DNA from: Vibrio halioticoli NBRC 102217
Lineage (GTDB): Bacteria > Pseudomonadota > Gammaproteobacteria > Enterobacterales > Vibrionaceae
Direction of reading: 5' to 3'
NCBI RefSeq assembly: GCF_000496695.1
Contig: NZ_BAUJ01000009.1
Span: 1-64,000, forward strand
Length of the DNA: 64,000 bases
Position 1 is the stretch's first letter, and each line of letters starts with the position of its first letter. The position numbers and the translations under genes were made by a program. The notes under the pieces were generated by a model that saw nothing but the letters and a program-made list of their open reading frames with translations, made no database searches and had not been told where the DNA came from. Below, one piece after another: positions 22,857-29,513 of the stretch.

Positions 22857-22952
22857 TTTTACTCCAAAGTAGTTTTGCAAAATTGAATATTGACTTCATT
22901 GGCCTTAATACTGCATATAATGAACATAGATCACAGAATTAAGGACACATGC

Positions 22953-23402
22953 ATGTTTAATAAAATTCAATCACTGTTTAAAGAATTATTAGACGGTAAT
23001 GACCTAGCCCATCACGCTAAACACCAACCTAAACTGGCTATCGCTGCGCTACTGTGTGAAGTTACCGCAGCCGATCACGAACAAACGCCAGAAGAGTTAT
23101 TAGCAGAGCAAACCATGCTGCACAAATTGCTAGAAATTACCGAAGAAGAAGCGACCGAACTGCTTGCTAACGCTCGTCAACAAGCCGAACAATCTGTCTC
23201 TCTTTACGATTTCACATCGCAATTAAGAGACTTACCAAGAGAGAAGCGCAATCAACTGATCAAAGCCATGTGGACTGTCGCTTATGCTGATGGTGAGCTA
23301 GACCCAATAGAAGAGTCAGTTATACGTAAAGCCGCTGAGCTTATTTATGTTGATCACAAAGACTTTGTGAAAGCCAAATTGGATGTTCAGCAGTCGATGT
23401 AG
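22953..23402 (+). CDS. TerB family protein (tellurite-resistance-like domain)
   Basis: A 149-residue acidic helical protein. Two similar helical halves carry the TerB pattern: LAIAALLCEVTAADHEQTPEE near 28-48 and LIKAMWTVAYADGELDPIEES near 103-123, where the acidic DG-E-LxxxE loop is the metal-binding style signature of TerB-like domains. The ATG at 22953 has AAGGAC ahead; the start 63 bases upstream is unsupported. It is the stand-alone COG4103 type, not part of a terABCDE cluster, so tellurite resistance should not be assumed. It is divergent from the TSUP permease gene. Confidence 0.8.
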   Translation: MFNKIQSLFKELLDGNDLAHHAKHQPKLAIAALLCEVTAADHEQTPEELLAEQTMLHKLLEITEEEATELLANARQQAEQSVSLYDFTSQLRDLPREKRNQLIKAMWTVAYADGELDPIEESVIRKAAELIYVDHKDFVKAKLDVQQSM

Positions 23403-24069: not shown

Positions 24070-24098
24070 CTTGAATTTCTGCTCAAGAACCCACACAT
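24070..24098 (+). promoter_or_regulatory. Possible heat-shock (sigma-32-like) promoter of the DUF2760/Hsp70 operon
   Basis: CTTGAA at 24070-24075 and CCCACACAT at 24090-24098 are separated by 14 bp, resembling the CTTGAA and CCCCAT boxes of RpoH promoters, 38 bases before the DUF2760 start. An alternative housekeeping -10 (TATAAA) occurs at about 24110. CTTGA/TCAAG at 24070-24087 is also an inverted repeat and could be an operator. Confidence 0.4.
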
Positions 24099-24135
24099 TT
24101 AGAGCAATTATAAAATATCCAATGAGACTCTAATC

Positions 24136-24768
24136 ATGATCATCGACCTATCCGTGTTACCGACCACGTTTGATATGCTGCACGCAGGTTTGGCTGCCTC
24201 TAGTGTCGTCCTGCTGGCCGTTGCTATTGCCCGTAAGCCAAAAACCATTGAAAAGATTATAGAAAAACCCGTTGAGAAACGTGTTGAAGTTGAAGTACCC
24301 GTCGAGAAAATTGTTGAAGTTGAGAAGATTGTTGAAGTTGAAAAAGTGGTAGAACGCGTTGTTGAAGTGCAGTCTAAACTAAAGACAGCCTCGACAGATT
24401 CTGCATTACAACTGCTTTCACTTTTACAACAAGAAGCACGTTTAATTGATTTTCTTAAAGAAGACATCTCATCGTTTGCTGATGATGAAGTGGGCGCGGC
24501 GGCTCGCGTTATCCATAGTGGCGGTCAAAAAGTATTAAAAGACTACGTCACACTCTCACCAGTGCGTAGCGAAACCGAAGAAACCACAGTCTCTGTTGCT
24601 GAAGGTTTTGATGCTCAAGAAATTCGTTTGATTGGCAATGTCACAGGAAAAGCGCCATTTACGGGCACGCTTATCCATAAAGGTTGGAAAGCCGACAACA
24701 TTGAACTGCCAAAACTGTCTGAAAACTACAACGCCGCAATCATTGCGCCAGCCGAGGTTGAGCTTTAA
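24136..24768 (+). CDS. DUF2760 domain membrane-anchored protein, partner of two Hsp70s
   Basis: A 210-residue protein. Residues 14-32 form one hydrophobic helix (MLHAGLAASSVVLLAVAIA), so it is probably bitopic with the bulk in the cytosol. Residues 37-78 are a striking run of Val/Glu/Lys repeats (VEKIVEVEKIVEVEK) encoded by an imperfect 18-bp tandem repeat near 24310-24345. Residues about 85-210 are the DUF2760 domain: LQLLSLLQQEARLIDFLKED, then VGAAARVIHSGG and a C-terminal beta-rich part. Its stop overlaps the next start by one base (TAATG), so it is translationally coupled to the Hsp70 at 24768. The fixed order DUF2760-Hsp70-Hsp70 implies a joint task. Inference: a membrane or substrate adaptor for the two chaperones. 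Function is not known. Confidence 0.82.
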   Translation: MIIDLSVLPTTFDMLHAGLAASSVVLLAVAIARKPKTIEKIIEKPVEKRVEVEVPVEKIVEVEKIVEVEKVVERVVEVQSKLKTASTDSALQLLSLLQQEARLIDFLKEDISSFADDEVGAAARVIHSGGQKVLKDYVTLSPVRSETEETTVSVAEGFDAQEIRLIGNVTGKAPFTGTLIHKGWKADNIELPKLSENYNAAIIAPAEVEL

Positions 24769-26612
24769 TGAACGAATCAGCAAAATATATCGTCGGTATC
24801 GACCTTGGTACCACGCACAGCGTACTCTCTTTTGTTGATAAGCATGACCAAGATGCAAAAGTTGCGGTCATGCCAATTGCGCAGCTAAGCGCACCCGGTC
24901 AAGTAGAAAGCCAAAACCAACTTGGCTCATTTATCTATCAGCCAAGTGAACACGAAATGGGCGCGGGCTCTCGCACTCTGCCTTGGACGGATTCACCGGA
25001 AGCACTAGTGGGCTCAGTTGCTAGAAAACTGGGTAGCAAAACCCCTATTCGTTTGGTAGCAAGTGCTAAGTCGTGGCTGTGCCATGCCGGCGTTAACCGC
25101 CGTGAAGCTTTCTTGCCAGCCGGTAGCCCAGAAGAGATCACAAAAATCTCTCCGCTTCGTGCAACTGAGCTTTATCTAGAACATTTAATGCAAGCGTGGA
25201 ATCACGCGCATCCTGAGCATCCATTGCAAGAGCAAGATGTCACCATCACAGTACCTGCATCGTTTGATCCTGCGGCGCGCGATCTTACCGCAGAAGCGGC
25301 GCGCAATATCAATTTGCACCACTTAACTCTTTTAGAAGAGCCACAAGCGGCGCTGTACAACTGGGTTGAGAAAACCGGTGATGATTGGCGTAACCAACTC
25401 AGTGTCGGTGATGTGGTACTGGTGGTCGATGTGGGCGGCGGCACAACCGATTTATCGTTGGTTTCTGTTACCGAAGAAGACGGCAATCTGACTCTAGAGC
25501 GTGTTGCTGTAGGTGAACATATCCTACTTGGCGGTGACAACATGGATCTTGCCTTGGCCTATCGCATCAAAATGAAGATGGCGCAAGACGGAAAAGATCT
25601 ACAGCCTTGGCAAATTCAGTCTATCGTACACGCTTGTCGCGATGCCAAAGAAGCGCTGCTTAACGACAAAGAACTGCAATCAGTACCGATTGTGATTCCG
25701 AGTCGCGGCTCTAAGCTAATGGGAAGCACGCTAAAAACTGAGTTAACTTCTGAAGAAGTACAGCAAACCTTAGTCGATGGCTTCTTTCCTATCGTTGATA
25801 TCGACGAGCATCCAAAACAAGCTCGTCGCGGCGCACTTACCCAAATGGGCTTGCCTTATGCCCAAGATGCCGGCATTACCCGTCATATCGCAGCATTTTT
25901 AAGTAAGCAAGCGCAATCTACTGCTGATATGTTTGGCGGTATGTTCGATAACAGCAAACCCGATTTTGTAAAACCGACCGCTATCTTATTTAACGGTGGC
26001 GTATTAAAAGCCAATACGCTTTCTGAGCGTTTGTTTGAAGTCATCAACCTATGGCTTAGCGATAGTGATGCGCCAGAAGCTAAACAGCTGCTAGGTTCCG
26101 ATCTTGATTTAGCAGTCTCTTCAGGCGCTGCTTATTATGGTCAAGTGCGTCAAGGTAAAGGCGTACGTATTCGCGGTGGTATCGCTTCTAGCTACTATGT
26201 GGGCATTGAAAGTGCGATGCCTGCCATCCCTGGTATGGCGCCGCCAATGGAAGCACTCTGTGTCGCCCCATTTGGCATGGAAGAAGGCTCAGCAGTTGAC
26301 GTACCAAGTCAAGAATTTGGTTTGGTGATTGGTCAGCCGGTACACTTCCAATTTTATGGTTCAACCACGCGACGTGAAGACGGCGCTGGTACGCATTTAG
26401 ATTACTGGCAAGACGGTGAGCTAGAAGAGTTACCAGAAATTCAAGTCACGTTAGATGCCCAAGAAGGCCGTCAAGTGGGTGAAGTAGTAGCAGTCAAACT
26501 GGCGGCTAGAGTCACTGAACTTGGCACCTTATATCTAGAAGCCATCGCGCAAGATAACGGTCAAAAATGGCACGTTGAATTTAATGTAAGGGACGACAAT
26601 CACTCGCATTAA
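24768..26612 (+). CDS. Hsp70 family protein (short paralogue of DUF2760 locus)
   Basis: A 614-residue Hsp70-type ATPase. Phosphate loop 1 is IVGIDLGTTHS (8-18), phosphate loop 2 is VVDVGGGTTDLSLV near 221-234, and the adenosine motif is AILFNGGVLKAN near 405-416. Insertions and a missing canonical DnaK lid set it apart from DnaK: after a beta-sandwich-like part (EIQVTLDAQEGRQVGEV, AARVTELGTLYLEAI) the chain ends at once, with no helical lid or EEVD-like tail. It is coupled to the DUF2760 gene upstream by a one-base overlap. An intrinsic terminator lies 18 bases after its stop. It probably works with, rather than duplicates, the longer Hsp70 downstream. No J-domain or GrpE gene is nearby. Confidence 0.9.
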   Translation: MNESAKYIVGIDLGTTHSVLSFVDKHDQDAKVAVMPIAQLSAPGQVESQNQLGSFIYQPSEHEMGAGSRTLPWTDSPEALVGSVARKLGSKTPIRLVASAKSWLCHAGVNRREAFLPAGSPEEITKISPLRATELYLEHLMQAWNHAHPEHPLQEQDVTITVPASFDPAARDLTAEAARNINLHHLTLLEEPQAALYNWVEKTGDDWRNQLSVGDVVLVVDVGGGTTDLSLVSVTEEDGNLTLERVAVGEHILLGGDNMDLALAYRIKMKMAQDGKDLQPWQIQSIVHACRDAKEALLNDKELQSVPIVIPSRGSKLMGSTLKTELTSEEVQQTLVDGFFPIVDIDEHPKQARRGALTQMGLPYAQDAGITRHIAAFLSKQAQSTADMFGGMFDNSKPDFVKPTAILFNGGVLKANTLSERLFEVINLWLSDSDAPEAKQLLGSDLDLAVSSGAAYYGQVRQGKGVRIRGGIASSYYVGIESAMPAIPGMAPPMEALCVAPFGMEEGSAVDVPSQEFGLVIGQPVHFQFYGSTTRREDGAGTHLDYWQDGELEELPEIQVTLDAQEGRQVGEVVAVKLAARVTELGTLYLEAIAQDNGQKWHVEFNVRDDNHSH

Positions 26613-26629
26613 TCTATAATGTTCAATCA

Positions 26630-26658
26630 CAGCACTGAGGTCTCAGTGCTGTTTTTTT
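26630..26658 (+). terminator. Intrinsic terminator between the two Hsp70 genes
   Basis: A perfect 10-bp stem CAGCACTGAG (26630-26639) / CTCAGTGCTG (26642-26651) with a two-base loop and seven T. It lies inside the gap between two genes that otherwise look like one operon, only 23 bases before the next ATG. Confidence 0.85.
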
Positions 26659-26681
26659 CTATTCTGCTCAGAGTTAACACT

Positions 26682-29513
26682 ATGGCATCGTCAAAAAAAT
26701 CTCGCTTTCTAGTTGGCATCGATTTAGGCACAACCAATACTGTTGTCGCCTTTTGTGAAAACAATGAACCTCTTAAAGAGTCGCCGTTACAACTGTTTGA
26801 AATACCGCAGTTAGTTGGACAAGGTGAAGTGGCAAAAAGGCCACAGCTGCCCTCTTTTCGTTTTCACGCCACCAAGCAACAGTTTTCCAGTGAGTCATTG
26901 CAACTGCCTTGGGAGCAACACAGCGTAGACGGTGACATTGAGCAAGTGATTATTGGTGAGTGGGCACGTGAGCTTGGCTCGCAAGTTGAAGGCCGCCAAG
27001 TATCCAGTGCCAAAAGTTGGCTGTCACACAGCAATGTGGATAGAGAATCCGATATCCTGCCTTGGGCAGGCGCCGACGATGTTGATAAAGTCTCACCGGT
27101 TATTGCCAGTGCCAGTTACTTAAATCATATTCGTCTGGCTTGGAATCATCAAAACCCAATCAACCGACTAGAAGAGCAAGAAGTGGTGATTACCGTTCCT
27201 GCTTCTTTTGACGAAACCGCGCGCAACCTCACTTTAAAAGCGGCGCGCCTTGCTGGATTAGATTCAGTATTACTGCTCGAAGAACCACAAGCGGCCTGTT
27301 ATGACTGGTACGCGCGCTTTGAGCAGCAACAAAACCCAGATTTATCCGACATTCCGCTGATCTTAATTTGTGATGTGGGCGGCGGTACTACTGACCTCAG
27401 TTTAATCAAGGCCAACTACACCGATAATCAGTTAAGCCTTAGCCGCATTGGTGTGGGCGAGCACTTAATGCTCGGTGGTGACAATATTGACTTAGCCCTT
27501 GCGCATATTAGTGAGCAAAAGCTAAACAATAAAACCCCAATGAAAGCGCAAACTCTAGGGAAACTGATTTCGCAAACACGCCGCGTGAAAGAAACTTTAC
27601 TTGGAGTAAATGCGCCTGAAGAAGGCAAAGTGACCTTACTTGGCGGCGGTTCACGTCTGATTGGCGGCGCGCGAAGTGTGGCTCTTAGCAAACAAGAAGT
27701 TCAAGAGTTGGGCTTAGAAGGCTTTTTCCCTGACGTTGAATTTGACCAGTTACCGAATCATAAACGTAGCGCTGTGGTGGAATTTGGTCTGCCTTATGTT
27801 TCAGATCCTGCTATCACCAAACATGTGGCACAGTTTTTAAATCAGCACCAAGCGGCTTGTCATGACGCTTTAAATACTCAAAGTTCATCCCAAAGTAATG
27901 AGAAAGCCATTCCAGTGGCGTTATTGGTCAATGGCGGCGCATTTAACAGTCCACTGATTAAAGCGCGCATGCAAACAGTGCTTGAGCATTGGCGAGGTGA
28001 TGCCATCACCCTATTGGACAACCCGCATCCAGATTATGCAGTTGCCTACGGCGCAGTGGCGTACAGCAAAGCCAGACGAGGCGCACAGCTAAAAATTGGA
28101 GGCGGCAGTCCGCGCTCTTACTTTTTGCATCTGCCAAGTAAAAACAAAAGCCAAGCCTTATGTTTATTGGGCAAAGGCGCAGAAGAAGGCACCGAAGTTC
28201 GCCTAACCGGACGACGCTTCGCCCTGACCTTAGATCAACCGGTGCGATTTAACCTATTAACCACCACCATTGATACGCTCAACGATGGCTCTATTCCCAA
28301 CAACGGCACATTACATGCCGTTGACAGTGATGTGATGCAAGCCTTGCCGCCGTATGTGGCATCGCTCGACAGCGGCAAAGTTGAGGATAGTGAAACGCTA
28401 TCAGCCAATCAGAAACGCCGCGTGGAAGTGCAACTTAGTAGTAAACTGACCGAGGTCGGCACACTGCAATTAGAATGTGTGGACATCAACGATGACACGT
28501 CTCGCTGGCAAGTTGAGTTTGAAGTGCGCAATCAAAAAGCGGTGCAAGAGCAAGAAATTCCCGCTAACTTACAACAATCAAAAGAGCTAATTTCCAAGCT
28601 CTACAGTGGCAGCAAGAAGCAAACCGATGTTAAAGAAATCAAGATGCTCGCCAAGCAATTGGAGCGCAACTTAGGAAAACGAGATAACTGGGACGTGACC
28701 ACGTCACGCCATATTTTCGATGCATTTGCCTTGGGCAAAAAACGCCGTCGCCGCTCTGAACCGCACGAGAAAAACTGGCTACGCCTTGCTGGCTATAGCC
28801 TAAGACCGGGCTTTGGCGATCCCGTGGATTCATGGCGCATGGAACAAGTGTGGCCTTTGTATCAACAAAGCATTCAGTTTAAAAATCAACAAGGATGGAG
28901 TGATTGGTGGATATTCTGGCGTCGTGTCAGTGGCGGTTTCAATCAAGAACAGCAAGAAACCATCCTTGCCGATATTGCAAAATACTTACACCCCGGCGCA
29001 TTAAAAAACCCGCAATCTGCTAAGTTAGCCCATGAGCAAGGTTATGAAGCTATGGTGCGTTTGTCTGCGTCCCTTGAGCGACTGCACTTTGATGATAAAA
29101 CCTTGTTAGCAAACTGGTTTATCAACAAGGCCTGCAATATGGATAGCTATCGTGATGCGCACTGGTGGGCACTGGCAAGACTGGCTAACCGCAGACCACT
29201 GTATGGCAGTCAGCACAACGTTATTCCTGTGGCAGACGTTCAAGGTTGGCTAAAAACCTTATTAGATCTGGATTGGAACAAGCAAAAAATGGCCGCTTTC
29301 GCTGCGGTAATGATGTCTTGTAAAACCGGTGATAGAACATTAGATATTTCAGAAGAGTATCGTGCGCAAGTCATCGACAAAATCACCACTAGCAAAGTGC
29401 CGCAAACTTGGCTACATCTGCTCAATAGTGAAGAATCGTTTGATCAAGAAGAAGCACAAAAAGCCTTCGGTGACACCCTACCCGCTGGATTGCAGTTGCT
29501 TAAAGAAGAGTAA
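26682..29513 (+). CDS. Hsp70 family protein with C-terminal DUF3731 domain (long paralogue)
   Basis: A 943-residue protein. The N-terminal Hsp70 ATPase part shows LVGIDLGTTNTVVAF (10-24), ICDVGGGTTDLSLI near 230-243 and LLVNGGAFNSPLI near 403-415. A beta-sandwich-like part follows, ending near residue 625, then a Lys/Glu-rich linker and a helical C-terminal domain of about 250 residues rich in Trp (GWSDWWIFWRRVSGG, DAHWWALARLANRRPLYG) that matches what is called DUF3731. The ATG at 26682 gives the natural MASSKKSRFLVGIDLG; an in-frame ATG at 26619 would place the terminator hairpin inside the coding sequence. The ribosome site is weak. Its unique tail suggests a client- or membrane-specific chaperone rather than a general one. 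Confidence 0.9.
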   Translation: MASSKKSRFLVGIDLGTTNTVVAFCENNEPLKESPLQLFEIPQLVGQGEVAKRPQLPSFRFHATKQQFSSESLQLPWEQHSVDGDIEQVIIGEWARELGSQVEGRQVSSAKSWLSHSNVDRESDILPWAGADDVDKVSPVIASASYLNHIRLAWNHQNPINRLEEQEVVITVPASFDETARNLTLKAARLAGLDSVLLLEEPQAACYDWYARFEQQQNPDLSDIPLILICDVGGGTTDLSLIKANYTDNQLSLSRIGVGEHLMLGGDNIDLALAHISEQKLNNKTPMKAQTLGKLISQTRRVKETLLGVNAPEEGKVTLLGGGSRLIGGARSVALSKQEVQELGLEGFFPDVEFDQLPNHKRSAVVEFGLPYVSDPAITKHVAQFLNQHQAACHDALNTQSSSQSNEKAIPVALLVNGGAFNSPLIKARMQTVLEHWRGDAITLLDNPHPDYAVAYGAVAYSKARRGAQLKIGGGSPRSYFLHLPSKNKSQALCLLGKGAEEGTEVRLTGRRFALTLDQPVRFNLLTTTIDTLNDGSIPNNGTLHAVDSDVMQALPPYVASLDSGKVEDSETLSANQKRRVEVQLSSKLTEVGTLQLECVDINDDTSRWQVEFEVRNQKAVQEQEIPANLQQSKELISKLYSGSKKQTDVKEIKMLAKQLERNLGKRDNWDVTTSRHIFDAFALGKKRRRRSEPHEKNWLRLAGYSLRPGFGDPVDSWRMEQVWPLYQQSIQFKNQQGWSDWWIFWRRVSGGFNQEQQETILADIAKYLHPGALKNPQSAKLAHEQGYEAMVRLSASLERLHFDDKTLLANWFINKACNMDSYRDAHWWALARLANRRPLYGSQHNVIPVADVQGWLKTLLDLDWNKQKMAAFAAVMMSCKTGDRTLDISEEYRAQVIDKITTSKVPQTWLHLLNSEESFDQEEAQKAFGDTLPAGLQLLKEE

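Follow-up and report, generated by a model that had tools for sequence, protein, structure and literature searches.

In the usual view, Hsp70 chaperones rely on J-domain proteins and exchange factors. The described systems closest to the locus presented here are the bacterial DnaK and HscA and two eukaryotic assemblies: Hsp110/Grp170, in which a larger Hsp70 relative is paired with a smaller Hsp70, and the ribosome-associated complex of Ssz1 and zuotin, in which a lidless Hsp70 is bound to a dedicated partner. The locus lies in a stretch of 64,000 nucleotides of Vibrio halioticoli NBRC 102217 (contig NZ_BAUJ01000009.1, positions 1 to 64,000; hereafter the window) and encodes a DUF2760 protein, a short Hsp70 (HspS) and a long Hsp70 (HspL) with a C-terminal DUF3731 region. 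DUF2760 (PF10816) and DUF3731 (PF12531, 'DNA-K related protein'), of which the proteins of the trio are members, are families catalogued without function; the link between the two families, and to HspS, is new here.

Both Hsp70s share with DnaK and HscA an actin-like ATPase domain with its catalytic residues, and the beta domain of HspL is placed as in docked DnaK and BiP. However, either protein is only 19-22% identical to the host's own DnaK and HscA (36% between HspS and HspL), HspS is lidless, HspL carries the helical DUF3731 region instead, and the linker and the J-protein contacts are altered. The pairing of a larger with a smaller Hsp70 resembles Hsp110/Grp170, and in the HspL model the ATPase domain of Hsp110 (6gfa) is matched with a Z of 32.3, no better than others are; the C-terminal region of HspL differs, and the comparison points to no common ancestry beyond that of Hsp70s at large. 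Ssz1, whose structure 6sr6 is among the Foldseek rows, is likewise lidless with a dedicated partner, but zuotin has a J-domain whereas DUF2760 has no DnaJ match, and Ssz1 is said not to hydrolyse ATP whereas HspS retains the catalytic residues.

The original prediction, made from the sequence of the window, took this locus for a leading candidate for an undescribed system. In agreement, no publication naming DUF2760, DUF3731, PF10816, PF12531 or two InterPro numbers taken to be theirs was found in a search that most subscription journals lay outside of, and extracts from three papers on bacterial Hsp70s (PMC8215388, PMC11019930, PMC8910936) held no match to the keyword 'DUF'. Literature on lidless or DnaK-related proteins gave nothing on the trio among the matches listed. 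A carbonylated 'DnaK-related protein' of Photobacterium angustum, VAS14_01896, appears in an extract of PMC3706606; its published peptide is absent, at 9 or more of 11 identities, from all open reading frames of the 113 loci compared below, and no link is claimed.

Results

The three genes are present or absent together

The trio is close to all-or-none across genomes. Two draws were searched, an even draw of 398 Pseudomonadota (draw a) and 281 Gammaproteobacteria with a completeness floor of 95 (draw b); the host genome and genome G082 belong to both. In draw a, DUF2760 was found in 28 genomes and DUF3731 in 27, with all 27 in common. Both domains were absent from control genomes that include E. 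coli. The odd genome has an HspS that ends 81 bases short of the contig end and no HspL elsewhere in the assembly, so that its HspL is unassembled or absent. In draw b, DUF2760, DUF3731 and an HspS profile (E 1e-50) each pick out the same 10 genomes. The profile search, which scored only the best few candidates per genome, returns two proteins in each of the 10, HspS and HspL, and zero in the remaining 271; HspL is on a separate contig in two of them (G565 and G639).

Within Vibrio, DUF2760 is present in 143 of 148 genomes, 10 of which, those within draw a, were also checked for DUF3731. The five genomes that lack it comprise two of about 1 Mb, one that is 79% complete and two of normal size. 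None of them gave a DUF3731 match with a model that gave matches in other genome searches, and their best HspS matches (33-40% identity, partial length, 20-45 bits) are at the level of DnaK and HscA; judged by these matches, all five also appear to be without HspS and HspL. The set occurs as well in several Burkholderiales and methanotrophs (among the best 80 of at least 573 relatives), and DUF2760 was also found in 11 records of the plasmid collection. Of these records, 10 match at least 80% of HspL as well, and several are replicons above 1 Mb. The co-occurrence search brought up no common occurrence of DUF2760 or DUF3731 without the Hsp70s, which the original prediction had named as an observation contrary to a common system.

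Gene order and retention of an unlinked HspL

In the window, all three genes are found at the expected place on the + strand, one behind the other. The DUF2760 gene (24136-24768, 210 residues) overlaps the HspS gene (24768-26612, 614 residues) by one base at 24768, and HspL (26682-29513, 943 residues) starts with the ATG at 26682. An alternative in-frame ATG at 26619 would give an HspL of 964 residues, but it is located 5' of the terminator-like hairpin described below. The DUF2760 protein is identical in V. ezurae NBRC 102218, the nearest named relative, in which the HspS-HspL gap differs.

This arrangement was compared across 113 loci, some of them near-duplicates: 28 from the sampled genomes, 80 named contigs (the best 80 noted above), four plasmid stretches and the window. 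In 85 loci all three frames are complete and follow one another as DUF2760-HspS-HspL, and in 74 of these the DUF2760 stop overlaps the HspS start, by 1 base in 59 and by 4 bases in 15. Another 21 loci display a DUF2760-HspS pair that HspL does not adjoin, including L129, which is too short after HspS to tell. These pair-type loci come from 17 methanotrophs, Comamonas testosteroni, a Thiodictyon plasmid and an other-class genome (L055); two pair-type metagenome-assembled genomes (MAGs) of uncultured proteobacterium or other-class origin are counted with the rest. The remaining seven are cut by contig ends (L054, L094, L121, L138), have frame changes (L099 and L056, the latter being the HspL of the L055 genome) or, for L152, were mis-sorted by the reading-frame caller and are annotated as intact.

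A whole-genome search of 19 genomes, 18 of the pair type and that of L138, recovered DUF3731 in 18; the remaining genome has an HspL-like frame that ends 25 bases before its contig does. Since it is found in 19 of 19 genomes, one of them with a frame cut by the contig end, HspL is retained even when it is not adjacent. The idea of one dedicated system is thus strongly supported by joint occurrence, joint loss in Vibrio and the retention of HspL when apart.

Two further arrangements were observed. A methanotroph MAG (G413; L161, L162) has two full-length HspL frames, of 927 and 933 residues, on different contigs. In G082 (L059:8053-10973), HspS and HspL are about 2.9 kb apart, and between them lie two seemingly unrelated genes, one porin-like and one calcium/proton-antiporter-like as judged by eye.

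The DUF2760 protein has a conserved C-terminal domain and a variable N-terminus

The DUF2760 protein matches PF10816 at residues 87-209 (E 2e-54, 183.1 bits against a curated cut-off of 25). A single helix is predicted at residues 11-32, with the hydropathy of a membrane helix and R-K-P-K next to it, followed by a linker (residues 37-80) in which 32 of 44 positions are V, E or K. The positive-inside rule allows the domain to be oriented: with R-K-P-K after the helix, it is predicted to be cytosolic. The Pfam scan returned PF10816 and a marginal repeat match only, and no J-domain (PF00226). The structural model, based on 52 sequences, has a mean predicted local distance difference test score (pLDDT) of 76 and a predicted TM-score (pTM) of 0.52, and displays one N-terminal helix, a linker with pLDDT below 50 and then a well-predicted domain with helices before strands. 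No PDB sequence match indicated a known fold (best E 0.29), the model, which includes the disordered linker, had no Foldseek match to solved structures at E 0.001 (best 1.5), and the best VIA Z of 2.1 covers the membrane helix and linker only.

The conserved portion of the protein is the C-terminal domain, through to its end APAEVEL. An N-terminal 17-residue stretch with mean hydropathy above 1.8 is found in 97 of 112 DUF2760 proteins, from Vibrionaceae, methanotrophs, Bradyrhizobium and other-class genomes; three of the 97 stretches are FLSRIAIAIGSFFAILG, which we do not count as membrane-spanning, and in one Aliivibrio protein the helix stays slightly under the line of 1.8. The FLSRIAIAIGSFFAILG-type N-terminus, SFxSRxxxAxGxFFxxLG, is that of Duganella, Comamonas and several other families, and two proteins of family f22 are without a hydrophobic stretch. 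The membrane anchor is limited to some lineages; Burkholderiales and several other sampled families have another N-terminus. The single-pass membrane protein with a V/E/K linker that had been proposed stands for the window, and membrane anchoring is compatible with the proteins of Vibrionaceae, methanotrophs and Bradyrhizobium, though not with those of the families with the other N-terminus.

Both Hsp70s keep the ATPase residues, and most J-protein contacts are altered

HspS matches PF00012 at residues 8-331 and HspL at residues 96-306, both over the cut-off. Only 29 residues of HspS lie between the DnaK G482 column and the end, compared to 156 in the host DnaK, so that there is no space for a lid; with 24-36 residues after this column in 106 of 109 HspS, an alpha-helical lid of the canonical DnaK/HscA type was not found. 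The beta substrate-binding domain is present in HspL by the model and in HspS by alignment only.

The HspL model (34 sequences, mean pLDDT 80, pTM 0.61) consists of a nucleotide-binding domain and a beta domain up to residue 613, together about residues 6-616 (26697-28529, + strand), and a C-terminal region (residues 617-943) with helices at 620-929. These helices follow the beta domain, but within a 320-residue region with DUF3731 and not as a canonical lid. PF12531 is matched at residues 692-939 (28755-29498, + strand; E 1e-92, 310.9 bits against a curated cut-off of 25), and a PDB sequence search with DUF3731 gave no match (best E 0.46). The portion from residue 4 to 616 can be superposed on ATP-state, domain-docked BiP (5e84: Z 32.3, 474 residues, root-mean-square deviation 4.0) and DnaK (4b9q: Z 31.4, 466 residues, root-mean-square deviation 3.9); matches to ATPase domains only tie in Z, and the top row is an integrative model with a Z of 35.2. 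The three-gene locus with its one-base overlap, the lidless HspS and the long HspL with a Trp-rich C-terminal domain (13 Trp in the PF12531 region) had all been described correctly beforehand.

In a tree of 33 HspS, 32 HspL, DnaK, HscA and one YegD-like protein, HspS forms a clade (support 1.0), and a grouping of HspS with HspL to the exclusion of DnaK and HscA has support 0.79; with the root used, HspL does not form a clade.

The ATPase motifs, seen to be retained in both proteins at the outset, are intact in the window, and the catalytic residues are conserved in the homologues. Across 109 HspS and 99 HspL, many from Vibrio and hence not independent, D8, T11, K70, P143, E171, D194, T199, D201 and K270 (DnaK numbering) are retained in all 99 HspL and in no fewer than 108 of the 109 HspS. 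R167 of DnaK, which according to extracts of two papers bonds the Asp of the J-domain HPD motif (PMC8215388, PMC7289447), is found in 2 of 109 HspS and 32 of 99 HspL. N170 is Glu in all HspS and HspL, Q378, P419 and D481 are altered in all, and the VLLLD linker is replaced. These alignments suggest that HspS at least may not be driven by J-proteins.

The trio could instead consist of ordinary accessory Hsp70s driven by the host DnaJ, DjlA and GrpE, with DUF2760 merely positioning them at the membrane. The genome indeed encodes DnaJ, HscB, a DjlA-like J-protein and GrpE, all away from the trio: the three J-domain genes found are on contigs C90, C107 and C27, the first of which also holds grpE, and, as the original prediction had noted for the neighbourhood, no DnaJ-type or GrpE gene was found on the window's own contig (C101). 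The HspL that retain R167 would fit such host-driven chaperones too. However, the loss of R167 in 107 of 109 HspS, the other contact changes in all of both proteins, the replaced linker and the obligate presence of DUF2760 also in lineages lacking the membrane helix make this quite unlikely. The earlier suggestion that a J-protein is missing or replaced gains indirect support from the altered contacts and is weakened by the third of HspL with R167.

Expression signals in Vibrionaceae

The sigma-32 consensus used was CTTGAA, 12-18 bases, CCCCAT. A sigma-32-like pair with at most one mismatch is located 5' of DUF2760 in 22 of 63 Vibrionaceae loci; the background is 4 in 1260 for mononucleotide shuffles and 4 in 873 for random windows across the same loci. 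All 112 upstream regions also contain 22, and therefore none outside Vibrionaceae at that score. The host's own dnaK has one mismatch, and the candidate in the window (24070-24094, + strand, of the CTTGAA-N13-CCCAC type) has two. The trio is perhaps heat-shock induced in Vibrionaceae, as far as promoter-like sequences can tell. In many Vibrio loci the promoter spacer is TATGNTANNAT, which could be the extended -10 element of a housekeeping promoter. Positions 24070-24087 of the window, CTTGAATTTCTGCTCAAG, form an imperfect inverted repeat, which reads CTTGAATTTCTATTCAAG in the V. breoganii-group copies and is a possible operator.

In 50 of 61 Vibrionaceae loci the stop codon of HspS is immediately followed by a terminator-like hairpin, which 26 of 610 shuffles also show. 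In the window it lies at 26629-26659 (+ strand), with 10 pairs, a GGTC loop and a T tract, and the fold z of 26606-26700 is -3.7. Of 49 distinct hairpins 32 were aligned, and 17 were left out, including an Aliivibrio type with another stem. In this alignment pairing is found in all 256 cells, and 5 of the 8 pairs have changed on both sides; the complete pairing is inflated because the hairpins were selected, and it is the double changes at one homologous place that count as evidence. The distance from the T tract to the HspL ATG in the window, about 20 bases, leaves too little space for a promoter. HspL is therefore probably expressed by read-through and, in Vibrionaceae, probably at a lower dose. 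Loci with longer HspS-HspL gaps could fit a promoter of their own.

We found no paper joining RpoH, Vibrio and an Hsp70 family protein. In a Burkholderia pseudomallei proteome, available in extract, a mutant loses an 'Hsp70 family protein', WP_004524146, of 65.2 kDa and pI 5.7 (PMC7085900). The forward primer given in that paper, read in frame, yields GEHILL and can be placed on the HspS gene of four Burkholderia-type loci with 1-4 mismatches in 18. With the reverse primer set at the best of 60 positions, three of these loci give an amplicon of the published length, 176 bases, although the reverse primer then has 6-10 mismatches in 18. HspS of B. cenocepacia has 65.9 kDa and pI 5.2. WP_004524146 is probably, if not provenly, HspS, and the bearing of the mutant on heat tolerance is indirect.

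Gene neighbourhood and possible clients

Among the 45 largest clusters examined, no neighbour beyond the trio is common across families, and the neighbours of unlinked HspL genes are common to only a few of 16 loci; a conserved neighbouring client was thus rejected. A TerB-like protein in the window (22941-23402) weakly matches the TerB part of the co-chaperone DjlA (E 0.005). It was rejected as a fourth part, with a gene near DUF2760 in 7 of 10 Vibrio loci, the window included, and in 0 of 19 other loci.

In 16 of 18 unlinked-type loci examined, the gene directly 5' of DUF2760 encodes a small protein, about 127 residues long, that begins with a signal-peptide-like sequence; it lies at L109:7580-7963 and at a like place in L120, L122, L124, L125, L127, L130, L131, L134, L135, L136, L139, L140, L141, L142 and L143. 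This secreted-looking protein could be a client in methanotrophs if the trio were a client-specific maturation set for a single protein or membrane complex, as HscA is for Fe-S cluster assembly, with DUF2760 as a client adaptor rather than an ATPase regulator. Among named families HscA scores highest for both Hsp70s, but it stays far below the cut-off. Against such a set stand the lack of a common neighbour and the small protein itself, which has no Pfam match over the cut-off (four scanned) and was not seen in Vibrio; we regard such a set as possible, if somewhat unlikely.

Mobile elements and defence context

The trio is found on two conjugative Bradyrhizobium plasmids, one copy 3' of trb genes and the other followed by groES-groEL, and on a Comamonadaceae plasmid. 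On the Bradyrhizobium sp. CB82 plasmid pCB82_1 (L151:9713-18224), which is conjugative, groES-groEL are about 1 kb downstream of the trio. The Thiodictyon plasmid pTs485 (L149:7650-10168) carries the DUF2760-HspS pair without HspL among annotated anti-phage genes and a TIR gene. Carriage as phage cargo was rejected: HspS had no match in 50,697 phage records, and DUF2760 was unconfirmed in any viral contig.

The plasmid pair raises the alternative of a signalling or defence module, in which the Hsp70-like ATPases would act as switches rather than chaperones. An Hsp70-like regulator, StkA, is reportedly present in Myxococcus, and in PADLOC both Hsp70s weakly match PDC-M61B (28.7 and 25.5 bits). 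However, the match spans only about 90 residues around the ATPase loops, DUF2760 has no PADLOC match, no conserved effector or output gene adjoins the trio, and the near-universal presence in Vibrio is unlike that of typical defence genes. Membership of an anti-phage system was rejected for lack of a PADLOC match over most of a protein, and we consider a switch module very improbable.

Discussion

As the genes are inherited or lost together, they very probably encode one chaperone machine. We infer from this joint inheritance that DUF2760, HspS and HspL are three parts of a dedicated Hsp70 machine with a non-J partner, a reading to which we give a probability of roughly 0.4. Several observations weigh against it. 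The N-terminal anchor of DUF2760 varies between lineages, and the two-mismatch promoter candidate of the window, a score reached by 104 of 1260 shuffles, is weak alone. D326 (109 of 109 HspS, 85 of 99 HspL) and L484 (109 HspS, 96 HspL) are retained, residues that are also part of Hsp70 allostery; a third of HspL keep R167, and the DnaJ, DjlA-like protein, HscB and GrpE of the cell could serve the trio. Across 26 genomes, the correlation between the three proteins in tree distance is 0.90-0.95, and between HspS and HspL it is 0.97 over pairs involving seven unlinked genomes; shared species history alone could yield such values.

In a dedicated machine of this kind, DUF2760 would be anchored in the inner membrane and expose its domain to the cytosol, other lineages carrying another N-terminal helix. 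It may act as the dedicated partner of HspS, recruiting it and controlling its ATPase as a J-domain protein does for DnaK, and HspS would be the ATPase that grips and releases the client via an open, lidless groove. By analogy with Hsp110, HspL could be the large partner that pairs with HspS and speeds nucleotide exchange, and its helical DUF3731 region would hold unfolded client. HspL would probably be made at a lower dose in Vibrionaceae, where the trio would perhaps respond to heat shock. A bolder version, in which the machine runs without any J-domain protein or GrpE, DUF2760 represents a new activator class of undescribed fold and HspL is a bacterial Hsp110 counterpart with DUF3731 replacing the lid, seems to us rather unlikely.

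The set is present, by DUF2760, in nearly all Vibrio genomes searched, yet no published description was found. It joins an ATPase-competent Hsp70 pair, with J contacts mostly lost, all-or-none to a non-J protein, and it makes the question of whether another protein class can drive the Hsp70 cycle directly testable with three purified proteins.

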